A DNA stretch of 36,091 bases from a virus. A program made the translations under genes and the position numbers. The notes under the pieces were generated by a model, which made no database searches, was not told the DNA's origin, and saw only the letters and a program-made list of their open reading frames with translations. The stretch spans positions 1 through 36,091 of the IMG/VR virus record IMGVR_UViG_3300037486_000231; one strand, 5' to 3'. Positions 3,128 to 36,091 of this stretch are shown one piece after another. Within the stretch, counting starts at the first letter, position 1. Every line of letters starts with the position of its first letter.

Positions 3128-3388
3128 ATGAGTCGCCATCCACACGACATCGTTCCGCGTGACGACAAGGACGAAGTCCTTCTCGCCATCTACGACGTGC
3201 TTGTGGAGATCCGCGATGCACTGGTTCCGACGCCGTCCGCGGCGTCGGAGCCGGTGTCACCGGAGACGCCAACGGGCGCGGGAACGGCAGATGAGACGCC
3301 AGTTCCCGCGCCGCAGGCGTCCCAGAAGGTTCCCGCCAAGCGCAAGCCGGCGGCCAAGAAGCCGGCGGCGAGGAAGAAGCCCGCATGA
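3128..3388 (+). CDS. small head-region protein with a Lys/Ala/Pro-rich tail
   Basis: An 86-residue protein starting 2 bases after the capsid stop. Residues 1-35 are acidic and helical (DKDEVLLAIYDVLVEIRDAL). Residues 36-65 are a Pro/Ala/Thr linker. The last 20 residues are strongly basic, with repeated KKPA-type units resembling histone H1 or HU tails. I do not recognise a family. It overlaps the next gene by 4 bases, so it belongs to the head operon. A basic tail could bind packaged DNA or bridge acidic head proteins; this is inference. Confidence 0.6.
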   Translation: MSRHPHDIVPRDDKDEVLLAIYDVLVEIRDALVPTPSAASEPVSPETPTGAGTADETPVPAPQASQKVPAKRKPAAKKPAARKKPA

Positions 3389-5248: not shown

Positions 5249-5482
5249 ATGCCGAAAACCTATCGGGCGAAGGTGGGCTTCCGCTGCCCTGCCGATCCCG
5301 AGTCCCTGAAGAAGTTGCAGCAGGCGCTCAAGCTCGGCCCCGGTGAGAAGGCTGACGCCCTCAACGCCGAGGTCGAGTGGATGGATGCCAAGAAGGGCGA
5401 CAAGGCTGTGCCCTACAACGAGGCCATCCTCGCGTCCTGGCTCGCCAACGAGGTCGTGGAGGAGGTGAAGACGAGTGGCTAA
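5249..5482 (+). CDS. small tail-region protein, unknown function
   Basis: A 77-residue protein with GGAGG a few bases before ATG 5249. It has CPADPESLKKLQQAL near the N-terminus and a final helix, YNEAILASWLANEVVEEV. No membrane segment or catalytic motif is visible. It overlaps the first tube gene by 8 bases and is therefore transcribed with it. The NEAILASWLANE-like end occurs in proteins beside phage tail tube genes, but I cannot name a family. Confidence 0.55.
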   Translation: MPKTYRAKVGFRCPADPESLKKLQQALKLGPGEKADALNAEVEWMDAKKGDKAVPYNEAILASWLANEVVEEVKTSG

Positions 5483-6718: not shown

Positions 6719-7063
6719 ATGGGACTTCTCAACCAGAAGAAGCGAGTTGACCTCGACGAGGGAGAGTGGGTGGACGTACGCCCACTCTCCCTCGTCGCCC
6801 TACGCCGGCTGCGCTCCGAGGTCGCCTCGGTGCAGCCCGCGGGCGAAGACGAGTCGCGTGAAGAGGCGCAGGGCTTCGCCATGACCCAGAGCGCGCTCGA
6901 GCAGTGCATCGTCGCCTGGAGCGACGAGGCTCCCGTCAACGCCGAGAACATCGGCCAACTGCCCTACGAACTCACCTTCAAGATCGCCGCCGCGATCGGA
7001 CTGGGGGAGGCCGAGCGCCCTTTGGCTACTGGGCCGAGTTCGACCGACACCTCCGAGGCGTAA
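6719..7063 (+). CDS. tail assembly chaperone, unshifted (lambda gpG-like) product
   Basis: A 114-residue acidic helical protein with GCAGGAGTGAG before ATG 6719. Features are DLDEGEWVDVRPLSL and a QSALEQCIVAWSDEAPV helix. It lies immediately before the tape measure gene, where tailed phages encode the G/GT chaperone pair that holds the tape measure during tail assembly. The last 12 codons after 7024 encode a low-complexity Ser/Thr tail, while the -1 frame carries a long conserved-looking sequence. The role is established for the family; this member is assigned by position and the frameshift arrangement. Confidence 0.75.
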   Translation: MGLLNQKKRVDLDEGEWVDVRPLSLVALRRLRSEVASVQPAGEDESREEAQGFAMTQSALEQCIVAWSDEAPVNAENIGQLPYELTFKIAAAIGLGEAERPLATGPSSTDTSEA

Positions 7064-17571: not shown

Positions 17572-17615
17572 GGCCCCACGACCGCCGCTCCCGGTCGTGG
17601 GGCCACTTTCGTTTT
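17572..17615 (+). terminator. Rho-independent terminator ending the late operon
   Basis: A perfect 13-bp GC-rich stem pairs 17572-17584 with 17592-17604 around a 7-base loop. It is followed by ACTTTCGTTTT. It lies 33 bases after the holin stop. Confidence 0.85.
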
Positions 17616-17681
17616 GCCTCTTTCTTCTGTCCGCAGGGGGAGGTATGCTGCCCACAGCGCCGAAGAACGCACCGTCCACTA

Positions 17682-17693
17682 CCTTGAGGGAGG
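17682..17693 (+). promoter_or_regulatory. start-associated motif CCTTGAGGGAGG, copy 1 (plus strand)
   Basis: A 12-base motif containing the ribosome site, exactly 5 bases before ATG 17699. Four identical copies at the same spacing lie on the minus strand between 32.6 and 35.0 kb. The segment 17616-17681 between the terminator and this motif holds a TATGCT (17644-17649) that could be a -10 element, with no convincing -35. Confidence 0.75.
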
Positions 17694-29946: not shown

Positions 29947-30929
29947 CGAGTCACCTCTTTCGGAGCGCGCGGATGAGAGCGCAGGTAGACGTTCTTCAGT
30001 TGTGTCTCGCTGACGCTAGTGTAGATCTGCGTCGTTGTGATGTTGGCGTGACCAAGGAACTCCTGAATCATCCTGATGTCCGCGCCCTCTTCCATGAGAT
30101 GAGTGGCGCAGGCGTGGCGCAGGGAGTGCGGGTGGATCTCCACGCCTGCGCGCTGACCGGCGCCGCGGACGATGCGGCGCACGTCGCTGGTGCTGAGAGG
30201 ATTCCTGCGCGTTGTGAGCAGGAGGTTGTCGGCCCGTGATTCCGGTCGGATGGCGAGCCATGCGTCGATCGCCGCCAGCGTGGCCGGTGCATACGGCACC
30301 ATGCGTGTCTTCTCTCCCTTGCCGCGGACGATGAGCATTCCCTGATCACGGCGCACGTCTGAGAGCCTGAGTTCACACACTTCCGCGGCGCGCAGGCCGC
30401 AGCCGTAGAGAAGCTCGAGGAGGGCGAGGTCGCGAATCTTCTGGCAGATCTCTGACCGGATCTCTGCCCGAATTTCGCCTCGGGAATCGGCCGGGAAACG
30501 ATCCGCAAAACGGCTGTCAACGATGGCCCGCTCTGCTCCCTCGAGAACCCGCTGCATCTCCTGCTGGCTTGGCACCAAGGGTAGCGAGCGTTTGCGCGCT
30601 GGTGCCCTGGCGGTGTCAGCGGCTCCCGCGGAAACGATCCCGGCCTCCGCAAGGAAGGCGACGAAGGCGCGCATCGATGTCAACTTGCGCGCGATCGTCG
30701 CCGGTGCCGCTCCGCTCGCCGCCAACTCAGAGGCGTACTCGCGGCAGACGCTGCGGCTGAGATGCGCCGCGGTCATCGACTGCTCGTCCAGCCACTTGAG
30801 AAGCTGAGTGAGGTCGGAGCGGTAGGCGCGTACCGTATGCTGGCTGACGCGCCGCCGTTCCAAGTCCTCGAGGAACGCATCGGCCTGTGTCGCCTGCTGC
30901 GTCACCTGTTGTCTCGTCTTGCGCTGCAT
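29943..30929 (-). CDS. int: tyrosine recombinase (XerC/D-type integrase)
   Basis: A 328-residue recombinase. ATG 30929 is chosen because GAGGGAGAAG lies 4 bases upstream; ATG 30944 would add MREKT without a good site. The N-terminal SAM-like core domain (residues 12-100) is followed by the catalytic set R180 (GLRAAEV), K205, H268 and R271 (HSLRH), H294 (LGHANITTT) and Y303 (QIYTSVS). All are present, so it should be active in site-specific integration. Residues about 138-166 are extra compared with normal XerC/D and are encoded by a repeat element also found near 35.1 kb. No attachment site could be identified. Confidence 0.88.
   Translation of the reverse strand: MQRKTRQQVTQQATQADAFLEDLERRRVSQHTVRAYRSDLTQLLKWLDEQSMTAAHLSRSVCREYASELAASGAAPATIARKLTSMRAFVAFLAEAGIVSAGAADTARAPARKRSLPLVPSQQEMQRVLEGAERAIVDSRFADRFPADSRGEIRAEIRSEICQKIRDLALLELLYGCGLRAAEVCELRLSDVRRDQGMLIVRGKGEKTRMVPYAPATLAAIDAWLAIRPESRADNLLLTTRRNPLSTSDVRRIVRGAGQRAGVEIHPHSLRHACATHLMEEGADIRMIQEFLGHANITTTQIYTSVSETQLKNVYLRSHPRAPKEVTR
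30443..30513 (-). repeat. repeat element copy inside the integrase gene
   Basis: About 71 bases in frame within the integrase gene resemble 35086-35168. Read on the minus strand both begin GCCGTTTT, continue with CGG and TCGTTTC, and end in two GAGATC-type units. By eye about three quarters of aligned bases agree, with one gap of around 12 bases. It encodes the extra FADRFPADSRGEIRAEIR region just before the catalytic arginine. Confidence 0.65.
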
Positions 30930-30970
30930 GGTCTTCTCCCTCATCTTCGTTTCGTTTCGCGCGCGCGCGC

Positions 30971-31360
30971 CTAGGCCAGGGACTTTTCGCCCTTTACTCG
31001 AAGGCCGGCGGTCGATCCGGTGCCAGGGTCAGGACTGCCCTCGCCGGCAGTCCTCGCCGCCTGCCGCCCGACCTCGCGAGCGGCGACCAGCCACTGCCCG
31101 TTCGGCACTCTCTGGACGGCGTCAATCTTGCCCGCCACTGCCCAGCGAACTGCCGTGCGATAGCAGACGCCGACGCGCGCGGCGAAGTCGCTGATCGGGA
31201 TCCTCGCGCGCTTGTCTGGGTCCGCTTCGCGGGCATCGATGCGCCAGACGCGACCTACCTTGGTCGCCCTCACGCGGCCCGTCCTCGCCCAGATCTCTGC
31301 CGTCTTCGGATGGATGCCGACGCGCGCGGCGAAGTCCTCCGTCGTCATGGTCTTCTTCAT
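30971..31360 (-). CDS. double helix-turn-helix protein (excisionase-like)
   Basis: A 129-residue protein from ATG 31360 behind GGAGGAGG, overlapping the previous stop (ATGA). It contains two MerR/excisionase-type HTH units, at about 6-47 and 56-98. They share DFAARVG and the following W-A-x-x-G-x-x pattern, ending VWRIDAREA and QWLVAAREV. The last 30 residues are a Gly/Ser-rich tail. It lies directly upstream of the integrase, so a directionality factor or integrase-operon regulator is likely. An XRE-type repressor is not supported. The 41-base gap to int contains an alternating GC run. Confidence 0.7.
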   Translation of the reverse strand: MKKTMTTEDFAARVGIHPKTAEIWARTGRVRATKVGRVWRIDAREADPDKRARIPISDFAARVGVCYRTAVRWAVAGKIDAVQRVPNGQWLVAAREVGRQAARTAGEGSPDPGTGSTAGLRVKGEKSLA

Positions 31361-31608
31361 GCGTCCTCCTCCAGTTCCGCGAGCAGCAGCATCTCCTCGT
31401 TGCCCGTCTCTTGCAGGCGCAGGAGTGCCAACGCCCAGACCTCTGGATGGTCGGCGGCAACGTGCGCCCATGCGTTTCTGGTCGCCGCTTCGATCGTGGA
31501 GCCGACCGCCGTGACCTCGCGCGCGGCGACCTCGATGACGCTGCCGATGACCGCGTCCGCAGCAGCGGCGAGGTCGGGCGGCAGCAGGCCGATGTTGGGT
31601 AGGTCCAT
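31357..31608 (-). CDS. 83-residue helical protein, unknown function
   Basis: It starts at ATG 31608 behind GAGAGGGAGAGG. The sequence is Ala/Glu-rich helix (PPDLAAAADAVIGSVIEVA, DHPEVWALALLRLQETGN), acidic at the end (LLLAELEEDA). There is no recognisable motif. It is coupled by ATGA to the double HTH gene and so belongs to the integration module. Confidence 0.5.
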   Translation of the reverse strand: MDLPNIGLLPPDLAAAADAVIGSVIEVAAREVTAVGSTIEAATRNAWAHVAADHPEVWALALLRLQETGNEEMLLLAELEEDA

Positions 31609-31646
31609 GCCTCTCCCTCTCTGTGTTGAGCCTGACTTGGGGAAGG

Positions 31647-31692
31647 GTAGGAGCCGCCCAGACCTCTGGGAGGCTCTAGAATCGGCTCCTAC
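31647..31692. promoter_or_regulatory. nested palindrome upstream of the integration module
   Basis: A perfect 10-bp inverted repeat, GTAGGAGCCG (31647-31656) and CGGCTCCTAC (31683-31692), encloses a second perfect 6-bp palindrome CCCAGA-CC-TCTGGG (31657-31670). It lies in the 102-base gap between two minus-strand genes. No T-run follows on either strand, so a simple terminator is unlikely. An operator, an Xis or integrase binding site, or an RNA switch are candidates. Confidence 0.5.
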
Positions 31693-31710
31693 GCCTTCGG
31701 ATTTCTCCTC

Positions 31711-32262
31711 TCAGTCGATTTCGCCCTCGCGAGGATCCAGAGCGGCATCCATCTGCTCTCCCTCTCCTGCCTCTGCCCACTTCAGGATCTCGTCCAGCGG
31801 CGCGAACGCTACCCAGCGGAGATGATCATTGCCGTCAGGCCAGTCGGCCAAGATGAAGTCCCGATGGACGCGAAGCAGCATGCTGCCATCGACGCGCGCC
31901 GCGGCAAGGTTGAACCACTCCGCAGCGTCGTCGTTCTCGATGGCCTCGACGCCGGCGACGCCGTCAGCGTCGCCCAGAACATCCACTGCCGTCGGCTCCG
32001 CGGCGGCGCGCGCCTCCGCGAGCCGCTCCTGCTGGTACTCGTCGGCACTGCGGATGAGCGCGCTCTCTGCCCAGATCTGGTACGCCCAACTCTCGACGCC
32101 CTCGACCTTCGCCTCAAGGGCGGCGCGGATCCCCGCGTACCCGCCGTCGGGGGAGATCGAGTCGATCAGTTCGTGCATGGTCCGCGCCGTCTTCCTGATG
32201 GCCTCTGCCTGCTCTTCGATGATGCTGACGTTGCGCTGGATATCTGTCATCCGGTCGGTCAT
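31711..32262 (-). CDS. 183-residue acidic helical protein, unknown function
   Basis: It starts at ATG 32262 in an ATGA overlap with the upstream gene, with AAGGACG nearby. MTDRMTDIQRNVSIIEEQAEAI begins a helical N-terminal half. The C-terminal half is acidic and more beta-like (MLLRVHRDFILADWPDGND, WVAFAPLDEILKWAEAGEG). No family is recognised. It belongs to the accessory minus-strand block. Confidence 0.55.
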   Translation of the reverse strand: MTDRMTDIQRNVSIIEEQAEAIRKTARTMHELIDSISPDGGYAGIRAALEAKVEGVESWAYQIWAESALIRSADEYQQERLAEARAAAEPTAVDVLGDADGVAGVEAIENDDAAEWFNLAAARVDGSMLLRVHRDFILADWPDGNDHLRWVAFAPLDEILKWAEAGEGEQMDAALDPREGEID

Positions 32263-32591
32263 TGCGCGTCCTTCCAGAAGGTCTTGGACAGGTACGTCTT
32301 GGTCGGCCTGCCGCTCTCGTTGCCCGTGCCGTTGCAGCAGTCGCAGGGCTTCCACTCGACGTGATCGCGGTCGATGAACTTGGCGACCATCTTGCCGTCG
32401 CCCATGCAGCAGTCGCAGATCTGGTCGCTGTCGATGACCTCGACGTGCAGGCCGATGGCGGTCGGGTATGTCTGCGGAGCCGCCAGAGCCGAATTCCTGG
32501 CGGCACTCAGCGAGGTCACGCCGATCTGGATGCGCGTCTCGCGCTCGCCGTTTGGCTCCTGCCACTCAAACACTACGTCGTACTCCTTCAT
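32259..32591 (-). CDS. DnaJ-type zinc-finger-like protein
   Basis: A 110-residue protein. ATG 32591 is fixed by the start-associated motif exactly 5 bases upstream. The N-terminal half is a small beta domain (EYDVVFEWQEPNGERETRI, TSLSAARNSAL). The C-terminal half has CDCCMGDGK and, 25 residues on, CDCCNGTGN. These are two C-x-x-C-x-G-x-G knuckles like the zinc region of DnaJ. It may hold partner proteins. It overlaps the next gene by 4 bases. Confidence 0.6.
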   Translation of the reverse strand: MKEYDVVFEWQEPNGERETRIQIGVTSLSAARNSALAAPQTYPTAIGLHVEVIDSDQICDCCMGDGKMVAKFIDRDHVEWKPCDCCNGTGNESGRPTKTYLSKTFWKDAQ

Positions 32592-32596
32592 CACTG

Positions 32597-32608
32597 CCTC
32601 CCTCAAGG
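32597..32608 (-). promoter_or_regulatory. start-associated motif CCTTGAGGGAGG, copy 2
   Basis: Identical 12-mer on the minus strand, 5 bases before ATG 32591. The rest of the 135-base gap (32609-32726) holds a hairpin element and no gene. Confidence 0.75.
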
Positions 32609-32670
32609 CCTCTCTGTCGCCGTCTGTGAGCCGATCTGCGGCCCTCTCGCGGCCTGCTGGTCTACTGACC

Positions 32671-32706
32671 CTTCTACTGCCAAAGGCCGCTCGCAGCGGC
32701 CCTTGG
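32671..32706 (-). repeat. leader hairpin element, copy A
   Basis: On the minus strand 32680-32706 folds as an 11-bp stem with one mismatch around a GCG loop. The 33 bases 32671-32703 match 33156-33188 at 31 positions. It lies between a stop (32727) and the start-associated motif of the next gene. Confidence 0.65.
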
Positions 32707-32726
32707 CTTGATCTGTACGCGCGCTC

Positions 32727-33128
32727 TCAGCGGACGCGGCTCTGGATCTTCTGGCCGCGCTTCTCGATCACGTCTCCGACGTTGAAGTGGTCCGCGAGCC
32801 GCGCCATCTCCTGCGCGTCGCGCTCTGCCCAGTGGCGCAGTTCGCGGTCGCTGCTCATCTCTGCCCAGCCACTCGCGAGCAGGGAGTCGAAGAGCAGCGT
32901 GGACAGCTTGCCGACCGTCAGATCGTCGCGCTCGATGACCTTGGCCGTCGTCGTCGCCTTCTTGCACTCGACGCCGCTGAACGAGCGGCGGCATCCGCAG
33001 CCGCCGTCGATCTTGCCGCGGTCGGCGTCGCACTCGAAACCGAACGTCAGGATCTCGTCTTCGGGAACCCAGCAGAAATCGCTCTTCCGCTCTCCCTGCG
33101 TCTGCTCTGTGGAAACCAGAACCTTCAT
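32727..33128 (-). CDS. conserved small protein (MKVLV...TQG type), unknown function
   Basis: A 133-residue protein. ATG 33128 is set by the start-associated motif 5 bases upstream. MKVLVSTEQTQGERKSDF, WVPEDEILTFG and DGGCGCRRSFSG followed by KATTTAKV match a pattern I recall from many actinobacterial proteins of unknown function. I cannot recall the family number reliably. The C-D-A-D-R and C-G-C-R-R cysteines could bind zinc. The last 50 residues are helical. The TGA at 32727 is followed by the hairpin leader of the next gene. Confidence 0.65.
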   Translation of the reverse strand: MKVLVSTEQTQGERKSDFCWVPEDEILTFGFECDADRGKIDGGCGCRRSFSGVECKKATTTAKVIERDDLTVGKLSTLLFDSLLASGWAEMSSDRELRHWAERDAQEMARLADHFNVGDVIEKRGQKIQSRVR

Positions 33129-33133
33129 CTCGT

Positions 33134-33145
33134 CCTCCCTCAAGG
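33134..33145 (-). promoter_or_regulatory. start-associated motif CCTTGAGGGAGG, copy 3
   Basis: Identical 12-mer on the minus strand, 5 bases before ATG 33128. Confidence 0.75.
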
Positions 33146-33155
33146 TCGATGGACT

Positions 33156-33204
33156 CTTCTACTGCCGATGGCCGCTCGCAGCGGCCCTCGACAGTCGTAT
33201 GTGG
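33156..33204 (-). repeat. leader hairpin element, copy B
   Basis: On the minus strand CCACATACGAC (33194-33204) starts 6 bases after the upstream stop. It leads into a 15-position stem (33180-33194 with 33162-33176) around a GCG loop, with one G-U pair and one mismatch. AGAAGAGTC follows, then the start-associated motif. No T-run follows the stem. Confidence 0.65.
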
Positions 33205-33209
33205 AGATC

Positions 33210-33692
33210 TCAGCAGGCGGCGACGCCGAAGAAGTACCAGAGGTTGCCCTTGCCGCGGTACGCGCCGCACGGTCCCCACTTGGGGAACGGCGAGGCTTCC
33301 TCGTCCACGCGCGAGCGGCTCCACATACCGTCGCTGATCATCGGCTGACCCTTGCGGGCGATAGCCTTGACGATGGAGCGGTGCAGCGGCGACAGACCTT
33401 TCAGTGCCCACTGCTTGTCAGGATCCTCGTAGGCGTACTCGTTCTTCTTCTTGTCCCAGTGCGCTTCGCCCTTGGGCATGTAGTTGAGAGCGCGCTCGCA
33501 GAGGTCGCGCTTGGTCGCCGCGCGGATGCCCTTGGGGAAGCAGTCGCTGATATCGACCGCGCCGTCCGTCGTCGAGATGCTGCCGTTGTACGGGTCATGC
33601 CCGTACTCGTAGAGCGCGTCCTGCACTGCGTTGCCGTATGCCTCGCGCAGCGTCTTGCCTCTCGCCTCTGTGGTGAATGTACAGCCGCCCAT
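33210..33692 (-). CDS. conserved phage protein (EYGHDPYNG type), unknown function
   Basis: A 160-residue protein. ATG 33692 is set by the start-associated motif 5 bases upstream. The N-terminal TFTTEARGKTLREAYGNAV and YEYGHDPYNGSIST form a pattern that I recall from many phage accessory proteins of unknown function. Later parts have LCERALNYMPKGEAHWDKK and a Gly/aromatic C-terminus (GPCGAYRGKGNLWYFFG). No catalytic motif was seen. Confidence 0.6.
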   Translation of the reverse strand: MGGCTFTTEARGKTLREAYGNAVQDALYEYGHDPYNGSISTTDGAVDISDCFPKGIRAATKRDLCERALNYMPKGEAHWDKKKNEYAYEDPDKQWALKGLSPLHRSIVKAIARKGQPMISDGMWSRSRVDEEASPFPKWGPCGAYRGKGNLWYFFGVAAC

Positions 33693-33697
33693 GATGA

Positions 33698-33709
33698 CCT
33701 CCCTCAAGG
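33698..33709 (-). promoter_or_regulatory. start-associated motif CCTTGAGGGAGG, copy 4
   Basis: Identical 12-mer on the minus strand, 5 bases before ATG 33692. Confidence 0.75.
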
Positions 33710-33723
33710 TCCGCTTGCTGAGT

Positions 33724-33775
33724 CTTCTCAGCCGAAAAGGTCCGACCACTGTGGACCCTTCGGCGTCGTATGTGG
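33724..33775 (-). repeat. leader hairpin element, copy C
   Basis: CCACATACGAC (minus strand, 33765-33775) again follows an upstream stop, as in copy B. The stem pairs GCCGAA (33759-33764) with 33731-33736, and GGTCC with GGACC inside it. The arms have a different sequence from copies A and B while the flanks are kept. GAGAAGACTC follows, then the start-associated motif. Confidence 0.6.
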
Positions 33776-33781
33776 GAGCGG

Positions 33782-34072
33782 TCAGTGGAGTTCCAGAGCC
33801 TCCTGCTCTGCCCACTGCCACTCCTTGCTGCCCTGCTCCATGACGCGACCGGAGCGGGTATGGACGCTGGGCACGGCGACCGTCTTGACGGAGAGGCCGT
33901 GATAGTCGATGGCCTCCTTCCACGGCAGGCCGTCGATCAGGTCGCGCTTGATCTTCAGGTAGCCGCGCTTGACCTGAGCAATGGCCTCGTCGCGCGTGGA
34001 GCCGAATCCGGTGATGTCCTCGTCGCCAACGTCTTCCATCGAGGCGACGTAGATGATCTGCTGCTTCTTCAT
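33782..34072 (-). CDS. 96-residue protein, unknown function
   Basis: It starts at ATG 34072, 11 bases after the previous stop, with GAGAGGA as ribosome site. The N-terminal IIYVASMEDVGDEDITGFG is followed by TRDEAIAQVKRGYLKIKRDL, a strand-then-helix pattern. The C-terminus is helical (EWQWAEQEALELH). It has no start-associated motif, in contrast to both neighbours. No family is recognised. Confidence 0.5.
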   Translation of the reverse strand: MKKQQIIYVASMEDVGDEDITGFGSTRDEAIAQVKRGYLKIKRDLIDGLPWKEAIDYHGLSVKTVAVPSVHTRSGRVMEQGSKEWQWAEQEALELH

Positions 34073-34083
34073 GGTCTGTCCTC

Positions 34084-34950
34084 TCAGTCGAAGGGAGAGC
34101 AGTTCGGGTCAGGGTCCACGCAGTTGGCGTGATAGGGGAAGCGGAGGATCTCGCCGTTGCCGCTGTCGCCCTCGCGCCAGACGGCCTTGCTGCGCGACAG
34201 GGAGCCGCCGCAGTGGGAGCAGGAGATGATCTCGTCGCCGTCAGGCTCGTCGTCGTAGTGAGTGCAGGCGTCGCACTCAGGCTGATCAGGGCCGCGCTTG
34301 TCGAGCCAAGTCGTCTCAACCCAAGTGGCCTCCGACGGCTTGATCATGGCCTCGCAGAGGTTGCAGGGAACGAGGCCGTTCTCTTCCTCGTTACTCACGT
34401 CGTCGGGATGGCACATGCCGATATCGAACAGCGGAGCCATGACCCAGTTGTCGCTACCGTCGTCCTTGGTCCCGATGTTGTCGAGGAAGCGGCCCAGATA
34501 GGTGACCTTCTGGTAGCCGTCGAAGACGTACTCGTGACCGTGGACGAACCAGACGGCCTCGCGGTCGCCGCCGTTCATCGACCAGCCGCGGTGCCAAGGC
34601 TTGGCATCGACCATGTAGATCTTGTGGCCCTCTGCCGTGACCTCGACGGTCGGCTCGTACTCGTCAATGTACCGCTGGTTGAAGTCCTCGATCAGGTCGG
34701 AGGGCGAGAAGCCCTCGTCCTCGACGTGGAGAACGTCGAGGTTCATGACGGCGACCGTCATGGTCTGCGGCAGGCCGGTGATGGCCTTGTCCCACTTCAC
34801 GTCCACGATGATCTCGCGGGAGGCGACGACGCTGCCGACCGCGGCGCGGTACTCCTCGACCATCTTCGGGTCCGCGCTGGGATGACCGATGAAGGTCATG
34901 AACGCATGGTTGAAGGCGACTCTGTCGCCCACTGTGAAGGTCTGCTGCAT
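34084..34950 (-). CDS. 288-residue zinc-binding protein, unknown function
   Basis: ATG 34950 is chosen because the start-associated motif lies exactly 5 bases upstream; the in-frame TTG 34965 lies within that motif. MQQTFTVGDRVAFNHAFMTF opens a beta-rich N-terminal half. The C-terminal third has C-N-L-C, C-D-A-C-T-H and C-S-H-C-G-G, up to three cysteine pairs that could bind zinc. Aromatic-rich stretches (KPWHRGWSMNGG, WFVHGHEYVFDGY) lie in the middle. No family was recognised. It is the first gene after the predicted promoter at 34987-35013. Confidence 0.55.
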   Translation of the reverse strand: MQQTFTVGDRVAFNHAFMTFIGHPSADPKMVEEYRAAVGSVVASREIIVDVKWDKAITGLPQTMTVAVMNLDVLHVEDEGFSPSDLIEDFNQRYIDEYEPTVEVTAEGHKIYMVDAKPWHRGWSMNGGDREAVWFVHGHEYVFDGYQKVTYLGRFLDNIGTKDDGSDNWVMAPLFDIGMCHPDDVSNEEENGLVPCNLCEAMIKPSEATWVETTWLDKRGPDQPECDACTHYDDEPDGDEIISCSHCGGSLSRSKAVWREGDSGNGEILRFPYHANCVDPDPNCSPFD

Positions 34951-34955
34951 GGTTG

Positions 34956-34967
34956 CCTCCCTCAAGG
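34956..34967 (-). promoter_or_regulatory. start-associated motif CCTTGAGGGAGG, copy 5
   Basis: Identical 12-mer on the minus strand, 5 bases before ATG 34950. This leader has no hairpin element but carries TGTACA and GGTATACC palindromes just upstream. Confidence 0.75.
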
Positions 34968-34986
34968 CCGTTGATCGTGTACAGAA

Positions 34987-35013
34987 GGTATACCCTCAGT
35001 TCTCGACAGTCAA
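34987..35013 (-). promoter_or_regulatory. candidate promoter of the minus-strand accessory block
   Basis: Read on the minus strand, TTGACT (35008-35013) is a good -35. TACCTT lies 17 bases on as a TAnnnT -10, with TATACC as an alternative at 15 bases. Transcription would run into the gene starting at 34950. The palindromes GGTATACC and TGTACA lie at the start region and could be operators. Confidence 0.45.
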
Positions 35014-35216
35014 GCCGAATCCTTTAGCAAAGACCCTTCCCTCGCGCGCGTGAGATAGCGGGCAGCAGTCGCCGGCGTTCGGAGCGCAGATCTCAGGCCA
35101 GATCTCAGGCCGCATTTCGTCCCAGAAATCGCGTCGGAAAACGGCTCCGAAACGAACCGGAAAACGGCGACGAAATGAGCCGCGGCGACGCCCGCCAGGA
35201 CTTCGTTAGTCCTCAT
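35010..35216 (-). CDS. doubtful 68-residue reading frame across the repeat element
   Basis: It begins at ATG 35216 in an ATGA overlap with the preceding gene, which favours translation. However, most of it (FRFVSEPFSDAISG onwards) is the repeat element, read in a different frame from the integrase copy. Its end overlaps the candidate promoter. The protein shows no motif. It may be an accidental frame created by the element. Confidence 0.25.
   Translation of the reverse strand: MRTNEVLAGVAAAHFVAVFRFVSEPFSDAISGTKCGLRSGLRSALRTPATAARYLTRAREGSLLKDSA
35086..35168 (-). repeat. repeat element copy near 35.1 kb
   Basis: About 83 bases similar to the integrase insert at 30443-30513. It contains a perfect tandem 12-mer (35087-35098 and 35099-35110). 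A 9-bp inverted repeat, CATTTCGTC (35113-35121) and GACGAAATG (35169-35177), overlaps its right side. Confidence 0.65.
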
Positions 35217-35509
35217 TTCGAGCCTGAAATGCCGCGGCGCCGCAGCGTTTCGGAGTACGCGCGGGAGATCTCGTCGGCCCGCTGGAGAGCCGCGAAGATC
35301 TCGCGGCAGCGGTCGATCATTCCCGCGGCGGCAGCGGCGCGCATGACCTTCTGCCGCGCCGCCCGCGACGACAGCATGAGGACGTGGACGGTGAACTGGT
35401 AGAGATCTCGATCAGCGGCGTCGGAGTACTGCTGGACGGCGCGACCATGCCGCGCGAGATCCCCGCGGCTCATCTGGTAGAGGATGCTCTCGTCTGTCGT
35501 CAGCGTCAT
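35213..35509 (-). CDS. 98-residue helical protein, first gene of the minus-strand block
   Basis: It starts at ATG 35509 with GAAGGGAGG 6 bases upstream, close to but not the same as the start-associated motif. The protein is nearly all helix (SILYQMSRGDLARHGRAV, LMLSSRAARQKVMRAAAAAGM, RADEISRAYSETLRRRG) and basic. It may bind nucleic acid. No family is recognised. TGTACA lies at about 35530, as it does before the gene at 34950, suggesting shared control. A short palindrome, CATTTC with GAAATG, sits at its end (35214-35231). Confidence 0.5.
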   Translation of the reverse strand: MTLTTDESILYQMSRGDLARHGRAVQQYSDAADRDLYQFTVHVLMLSSRAARQKVMRAAAAAGMIDRCREIFAALQRADEISRAYSETLRRRGISGSK

Positions 35510-35754
35510 GGCTTGCCTCCCTTCACTTATGTACAAGGAGGCTTCCGCTCTGAAGTGTCAGATCTGGGATCCTGCGCTGCCGTTTGTCTGGCTGGCTGGC
35601 GTTTCGCGCGCGCGCGCGGAAAATTCAGGGATATCGCGCCTGATACTCGAAGGAAAAAGTGAAAACGTGCAGGAGTGGCCTTGCGGCCCTCTCAGGCGCG
35701 GCGCGCGCGGCGGCGAAGCGGAAAGCGGACAAAAGAGGGCAGGATAGTCGCGAG

Positions 35755-35774
35755 GCGGTCGAAAGCGGTCGAAA
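35755..35774 (+). repeat. perfect tandem 10-mer GCGGTCGAAA
   Basis: Two identical adjacent copies, 35755-35764 and 35765-35774, within the terminal non-coding region. Confidence 0.8.
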
Positions 35775-35851
35775 TCCTAGCAGAGGGAGCGGCGAAATCT
35801 TGCGCGCGTTTCGATCGCGGGAGAGCCGCGGCGCGGCGCGCGGAGAGAGCC

Positions 35852-35870
35852 GCGGCGAGGATCCTGCCGC
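35852..35870. repeat. interrupted palindrome around AGGATCCT
   Basis: GCGGC, a single G, AGGATCCT, then GCCGC form a near-perfect palindrome at the point where the plus strand changes from purine-rich to pyrimidine-rich. AGGATCCT recurs at 36022-36029. Confidence 0.65.
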
Positions 35871-36091
35871 CGCTCCCTGCCGCTCTCTCTGCCGCTCTCT
35901 GCCGCCGCATTGCCTGCCCTCTCGCCGCTCTCTGCCGCTTGCCGGCACACTTAAACGCGAAAGCGGCAAACCCTGCCGCCGCTCCTGCCGTTGCCGTTGT
36001 CTCTCGTATCGTACGCGCGGCAGGATCCTTTAACACTCCCCTGCCGCGGGCAGGCCTGCCGCGCCGCTCCCTGCCCTCTGCCGCCGCGGGC
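35865..36091 (+). repeat. cluster of CTGCCGC / CTCTGCCGCT repeats (iteron-like)
   Basis: About a dozen TGCCG units in roughly 225 bases, the tightest being 35878-35904 where CTGCCGCTCTCT is nearly tandem. Spacing elsewhere is irregular. An inverted unit, GCGGCA, occurs at about 35963 and 36018. The cluster runs to the window edge. Confidence 0.6.

Follow-up and report, generated by a model that had tools for sequence, protein, structure and literature searches.

Start-associated sequences were described in the Cluster K mycobacteriophages, in which the SAS reads GGGATAGGAGCCC (Pope et al. 2011, PMC3203893). It is a repeated, near-invariant 12-13-mer a few nucleotides before start codons, mostly ATG, with a Shine-Dalgarno core past which conservation extends and with symmetric ends, and it precedes non-structural genes behind gaps of more than 50 bp, most genes being without it. 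At a subset of these sites an inverted repeat lies upstream (the extended start-associated sequence, ESAS); the ESAS repeats are conserved in sequence, pairing of their RNA was not supported (PMC3203893), and they contain SigA-like promoters (PMC11373665). A survey of hammerheads found that several of them can flank single genes in prophages near the integrase gene, and a role in transcript processing was suggested (Perreault et al. 2011, PMC3088659). What the start-associated sequences and their upstream repeats do has been an open question ever since the description of the Cluster K phages. The leaders reported here bear on this question, as they come from an independent phage group in which a start-associated site of this kind is preceded by an element with the behaviour of an RNA structure.

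The leftward operon and its start-associated 12-mer

The window, that is the whole stretch of DNA analysed, is a 36 kb viral record (36,091 nt) with tail and capsid genes on the left and integrase and DNA methyltransferase genes on the right. The leaders lie in a leftward operon on the minus strand, with gene starts at 34950, 34072, 33692, 33128 and 32591, the last of these genes being followed by a homologue of an HTH gene of the relative G004 and then by the integrase gene. Structural genes are shared with five viral contigs (G001, G002, G003, G004 and G005), and of these relatives G003 and G004 alone contain the right arm. A search of a phage collection for a near match to the window and a scan of viral contigs for a closer relative with the right arm found none, and searches of viral contigs and phages with the DUF7715 protein, together with GTDB scans, found no relative or host. 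The features are, in the order of the operon:

34956..34967, minus strand: 12-mer CCTTGAGGGAGG of the first operon gene (ATG 34950), without long hairpin
33765..33775, minus strand: 5' flank CCACATACGAC of copy C; its initial CTCCC can pair with the Shine-Dalgarno part of the 12-mer
33731..33764, minus strand: hairpin C; lower stem GCCGA/UCGGC, upper stem GGUCC/GGACC
33724..33730, minus strand: 3' flank TGAGAAG (AGAAG box) of copy C
33698..33709, minus strand: 12-mer CCTTGAGGGAGG, copy C, 5 nt before ATG 33692
33210..33692, minus strand: gene of 160 aa downstream of leader C; no family match
33194..33204, minus strand: 5' flank CCACATACGAC of copy B; its CTCC can pair with the Shine-Dalgarno part
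33161..33195, minus strand: hairpin B; lower stem GUCGA/UCGGC, upper stem GGCCGC/GCGGCC
33156..33162, minus strand: 3' flank GTAGAAG of copy B
33134..33145, minus strand: 12-mer CCTTGAGGGAGG, copy B, 5 nt before ATG 33128
32727..33128, minus strand: gene of 133 aa downstream of leader B; DUF7715 (Pfam, E 1.3e-35)
32679..32707, minus strand: hairpin A; lower stem GCCAA/UUGGC, upper stem GGCCGC/GCGGCC
32671..32677, minus strand: 3' flank GTAGAAG of copy A
32597..32608, minus strand: 12-mer CCTTGAGGGAGG, copy A, 5 nt before ATG 32591
32259..32591, minus strand: gene of 110 aa downstream of leader A; no family match
17682..17693, plus strand: 12-mer CCTTGAGGGAGG of the first gene of a rightward non-structural operon, before ATG 17699, without long hairpin

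The 12-mer occurs in five exact copies where 0.007 would be expected, also heads the repeated start-linked 10-mers of the genome, and in 5 of 5 cases sits 5 nt before an ATG in the orientation of the gene; it is a repeated, conserved sequence directly upstream of starts. For copy B the start itself is backed by the Pfam match, which begins at residue 1 of the DUF7715 protein. The parallel to Cluster K that the first-pass annotation had drawn is sound for this element: near-invariance over a similar length, the position before the start codon, conservation extending past a Shine-Dalgarno core and the placement before some non-structural genes behind larger gaps are all features of the SAS as well. 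However, the sequence is CCTTGAGGGAGG rather than the consensus GGGATAGGAGCCC, the window holds only five copies in a possibly partial genome, and the likeness comes without shown kinship of the phages. The 3' half of the 12-mer can pair with the anti-Shine-Dalgarno sequence while its CCTT part cannot. Instead, GAGG within the 12-mer itself is a possible partner for the CCUU, and folding predicts a small hairpin in 7/7 contexts in the window, G001 and G002; this self-fold (CCUU/GAGG with a GAGG loop), of which the symmetric ends of the SAS are reminiscent, is lengthened by a flanking A-U or G-C pair at five of the seven sites.

The 12-mer had been presented as part of the three leaders, which is correct for three copies and incomplete for the set, since the copies at 17682 (plus) and 34967 (minus) have no long hairpin, leaving the hairpin at 3/5 sites. 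By eye, these two sites precede first genes of operons with promoter-like sequences, the one near ATG 34950 being TTGACT...TATACC at about 34987-35013, which a strict scan missed. The 17682 copy has counterparts before the corresponding gene in G001 and G002, and the stretch at 17600-17693 (plus strand) is conserved in these two relatives as a promoter-like sequence with TATGCT and an AGAA box before the 12-mer. Scans for further sites yielded several candidates that were discarded: a first pattern scan for the 12-mer before an ATG returned mainly chance matches, with the exception of one relative (G001), five matches to AGAAG plus the 12-mer lay in unrelated sequence and were judged to be chance, and CTCGAGATGA, a repeat in G001 with a start-associated look, turned out to be a coding repeat.

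Hairpins with changing stems and kept pairing

All three internal operon gaps of at least 80 nt contain both a hairpin and the 12-mer, and the 11-nt gap contains neither. The gaps are 135, 81 and 89 nt long, all on the minus strand, with copy A between 32727 and 32591, B between 33210 and 33128 and C between the stop at 33782 and ATG 33692. Every element of the layout described in the first-pass annotation is present on this strand. The hairpin starts 15-19 nt after the preceding stop codon in the three leaders, and CCACATACGAC, said to follow the stop by about six bases in B and C, has exactly two occurrences, 6 nt (33765-33775) and 5 nt (33194-33204) past it; its last bases in copy B overlap the outer hairpin pairs. 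Leader A is without CCACATACGAC and some 50 nt longer than the others.

The reported identity of hairpins A and B at 31 of 33 bases was reproduced, the best value in 200 shuffles being 21, and copy C does have arms that differ and still pair: its lower stem is similar to those of A and B, and GGUCC/GGACC takes the place of GGCCGC/GCGGCC in the upper stem. Trimmed hairpin segments fold with z = -5.1 (A), -5.1 (B) and -3.2 (C), and the whole, untrimmed leaders with z = -2.7, -3.0 and -2.5. With Rfam covariance models, searched up to an E of 10, the leaders of the window gave no credible match.

A relative provides a fourth element, which still pairs with yet another stem. In G004 the first operon gene has a homologue (52% across the N-terminal part), and a hairpin follows it, with the lower stem GCUCA/UGGGC, the upper stem GGCUCCC/GGGAGCC and the flanks CATAC and TGAGAA; it has CATAC and the 9-mer GGCTGAGAA in common with copy C while its stem differs. 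G004 also has a start-associated sequence of its own, GAAAGGGGAC, which stands before starts in 8/9 places. The whole leader is not unusually stable in this relative (z -0.5), and a second gap of G004 holds a still longer hairpin (z -3.5). A further candidate copy in G001, where TGAGAAG lies beside a hairpin, was rejected because it overlaps a promoter-like region, for which reason that hairpin is probably not transcribed.

Pairs were counted after aligning the four elements by hand, MAFFT having misaligned them, and the alignment was checked against the sequence. In this comparison of A, B, C and the G004 element, which comprises four sequences and motif choices made after the data had been seen, every element has standard pairs at 10 of the 10 positions compared; four of these positions show two-sided changes, one of them in three forms (A-U, G-C, C-G). 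Arms swapped between copies pair less well (on average 3.6/5 in the upper and 4.3/5 in the lower stem). Selection on structure, left between RNA and DNA in the first-pass annotation, is thus supported by arms that differ and still pair, by a relative that keeps the element with another stem and by the two-sided changes, and an RNA structure is favoured over a DNA site because the palindromes share no sequence.

Hammerhead-like elements in a relative

The operon of G003 (L197) that corresponds to the one in the window contains two leaders whose flanks are conserved and whose stems differ yet pair; on one side of them is a homologue of the first operon gene, on the other are the HTH-integrase genes. 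Both appear to be putative self-cleaving hammerheads:

G003 37694, minus strand: apparent type I hammerhead, full core and three paired stems (descriptor)
G003 37291, minus strand: apparent type I hammerhead, full core and three paired stems (descriptor)

The core is CCTGC-CUGACGA-stem II-GAA-stem III-GUC-GCAGG. The two elements have flanks and stem II in common and differ in stem III, which pairs at 11/11 and 9/9 positions and at only 6/9 with the arms swapped. A type I descriptor search finds both, with 0 matches in 1.5 Mb of shuffled sequence. The first leader is followed by a Shine-Dalgarno sequence and an ATG, the second only by a frame of 14 codons. An Rfam search at E up to 10 did not detect the two elements; this is weak evidence against them, since a minimal, canonical-looking hammerhead found with the same descriptor in the unrelated viral contig L090 (minus strand near 5283, CTGATGAG...CGAAAC...GTC) reaches only about 20 bits, far below the gathering scores of 48-56.

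Hairpins A-C were considered as hammerheads too and rejected, as a scan of both strands of the window leaders for type I gave no match, not even when two core mismatches were allowed. The likeness to the prophage arrays (PMC3088659) lies in structured elements whose stems vary and which stand between individual genes in an operon leading to the integrase gene, whereas the three elements of the window are without the type I core and without an Rfam match. Cleavage in the window is therefore suggested by analogy only.

Readings of the leaders

Comparison of the sequences establishes the layout, its repetition and the pairing kept despite changing stems, and the scans matched neither a promoter nor a U-tail within the gaps. 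The leaders might best be explained as intercistronic RNA modules of a polycistronic phage operon, each made of a stem-loop that separates or processes cistrons and a phage-specific ribosome binding site, a reading that we put first, if tentatively, at close to an even chance. The GC-rich, stable stem-loop would begin just beyond the likely footprint of a ribosome terminating on the upstream gene, and the extended Shine-Dalgarno sequence CCTTGAGGGAGG stands 5 nt before the following AUG. Within the transcript the stem-loop would act as a cistron separator, shielding or marking the upstream message at its 3' end and leaving the downstream gene with a short 5' leader that carries the start-associated site. 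That the gaps separate or control genes at the RNA level is probable because the hairpins keep their pairing, the landing sequence is identical and hammerhead-like elements occupy the matching place in a distant relative. These findings connect start-associated sites, in a testable way, with either the processing of transcripts or translational coupling.

Such coupling could also operate by itself, as a switch. The CUCC(C) located 2-4 nt past the stop would bind GGAG in the start-associated site, with the hairpin clamping both, and a ribosome that completes translation of the upstream gene would cover this CUCC and release the downstream start. Predicted folds do pair CUCC(C) with Shine-Dalgarno bases in leaders B and C and in the first G003 leader (G003_HH1), and with the stop and 12 nt held single-stranded the cost of opening the site falls from 3.1 to 1.7 (B), from 6.9 to 3.3 (C) and from 3.4 to 1.6 kcal/mol (G003_HH1), that is by about 1.3-3.5 kcal/mol; moreover, CTCC follows within 10 nt after only 3-4.5% of stops in these genomes. 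However, leader A and the G004 leader have no CUCC, the cost does not fall in A (5.3 to 5.7) and changes from 4.5 to 3.6 in G004, the motif was chosen after the folds had been seen, and the 12-mer alone forms a small competing hairpin, so that the switch as a full explanation is possible but doubtful. Masking by CUCC would be compatible with cistron separation, and separation by processing and end protection remains our first choice, with masking second. It is rather unlikely that the hairpins are weak conditional terminators, or attenuators, inside the operon that antitermination overrides. GC-rich stems right after stop codons would suit them, as would UUU or UUUU after the upper stem in A, C and G004, and terminators with poor U-tracts are frequent in high-GC phages. 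In the Cluster K phage Adephagia a transcript ends at a 17-base stem between genes (PMC11373665). Against this, the full stems have no U-tail, the U3/U4 runs of A and C lie inside the full stem and B has no U run at all, and a consensus scan for U-tailed intrinsic terminators in the region gave 0 matches where 2.3 are expected in shuffles; the downstream genes would also need read-through, because no promoter was found between hairpin and start. The earlier argument against plain terminators therefore stands, with the short runs in A and C keeping termination possible.

A DNA-level control site of the ESAS kind, with inverted repeats over a promoter bound by a regulator, would share the order of inverted repeat, start-associated sequence and start codon at a subset of sites (PMC3203893), and it is here that the Cluster K parallel fails for the hairpin. 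While ESAS repeats are sequence-conserved, unpaired as RNA and promoter-containing, the leaders here have no 17-bp inverted repeats with a conserved consensus: the upper arms differ among C, A/B and G004, each pairs, and the changes preserve RNA pairing. A strict scan of 30900-36091 found no promoter hexamers, including no SigA-like -35/-10 pair inside the repeat, and a site of this kind is very improbable. Mosaic phages exchange single genes, and the near-identity of A and B over 33 bases resembles that left by a recent duplication; passenger palindromes, brought to gene boundaries by recombination or a small mobile element and devoid of a regulatory role, are nonetheless quite unlikely given a constant distance from the stop, the other stems with which C and the G004 element pair, and the start-associated site that follows every element. 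Within the reading as RNA modules there is a slim chance, smaller again than that of passenger palindromes, that CATAC-hairpin-AGAA is an unnamed RNA processing element, possibly self-cleaving, which replaces hammerheads before start-associated sites; if so, hammerheads and hairpins would be interchangeable cistron separators within one phage group.

Other repeats were observed in the same record. Similar runs of GATCTC/GATTTCG-type repeats lie at 30432-30510, inside the integrase gene, and at 35086-35180, in the gap upstream of the leftward operon, and the pair apparently recurs in G004; it is as though a repeat element had moved in frame into the integrase coding sequence. In the structural region, perfect 18-bp palindromic hairpins at 6755-6796 and 3218-3257 (both plus strand; -39 and -36 kcal/mol) lie within or at the start of open frames.
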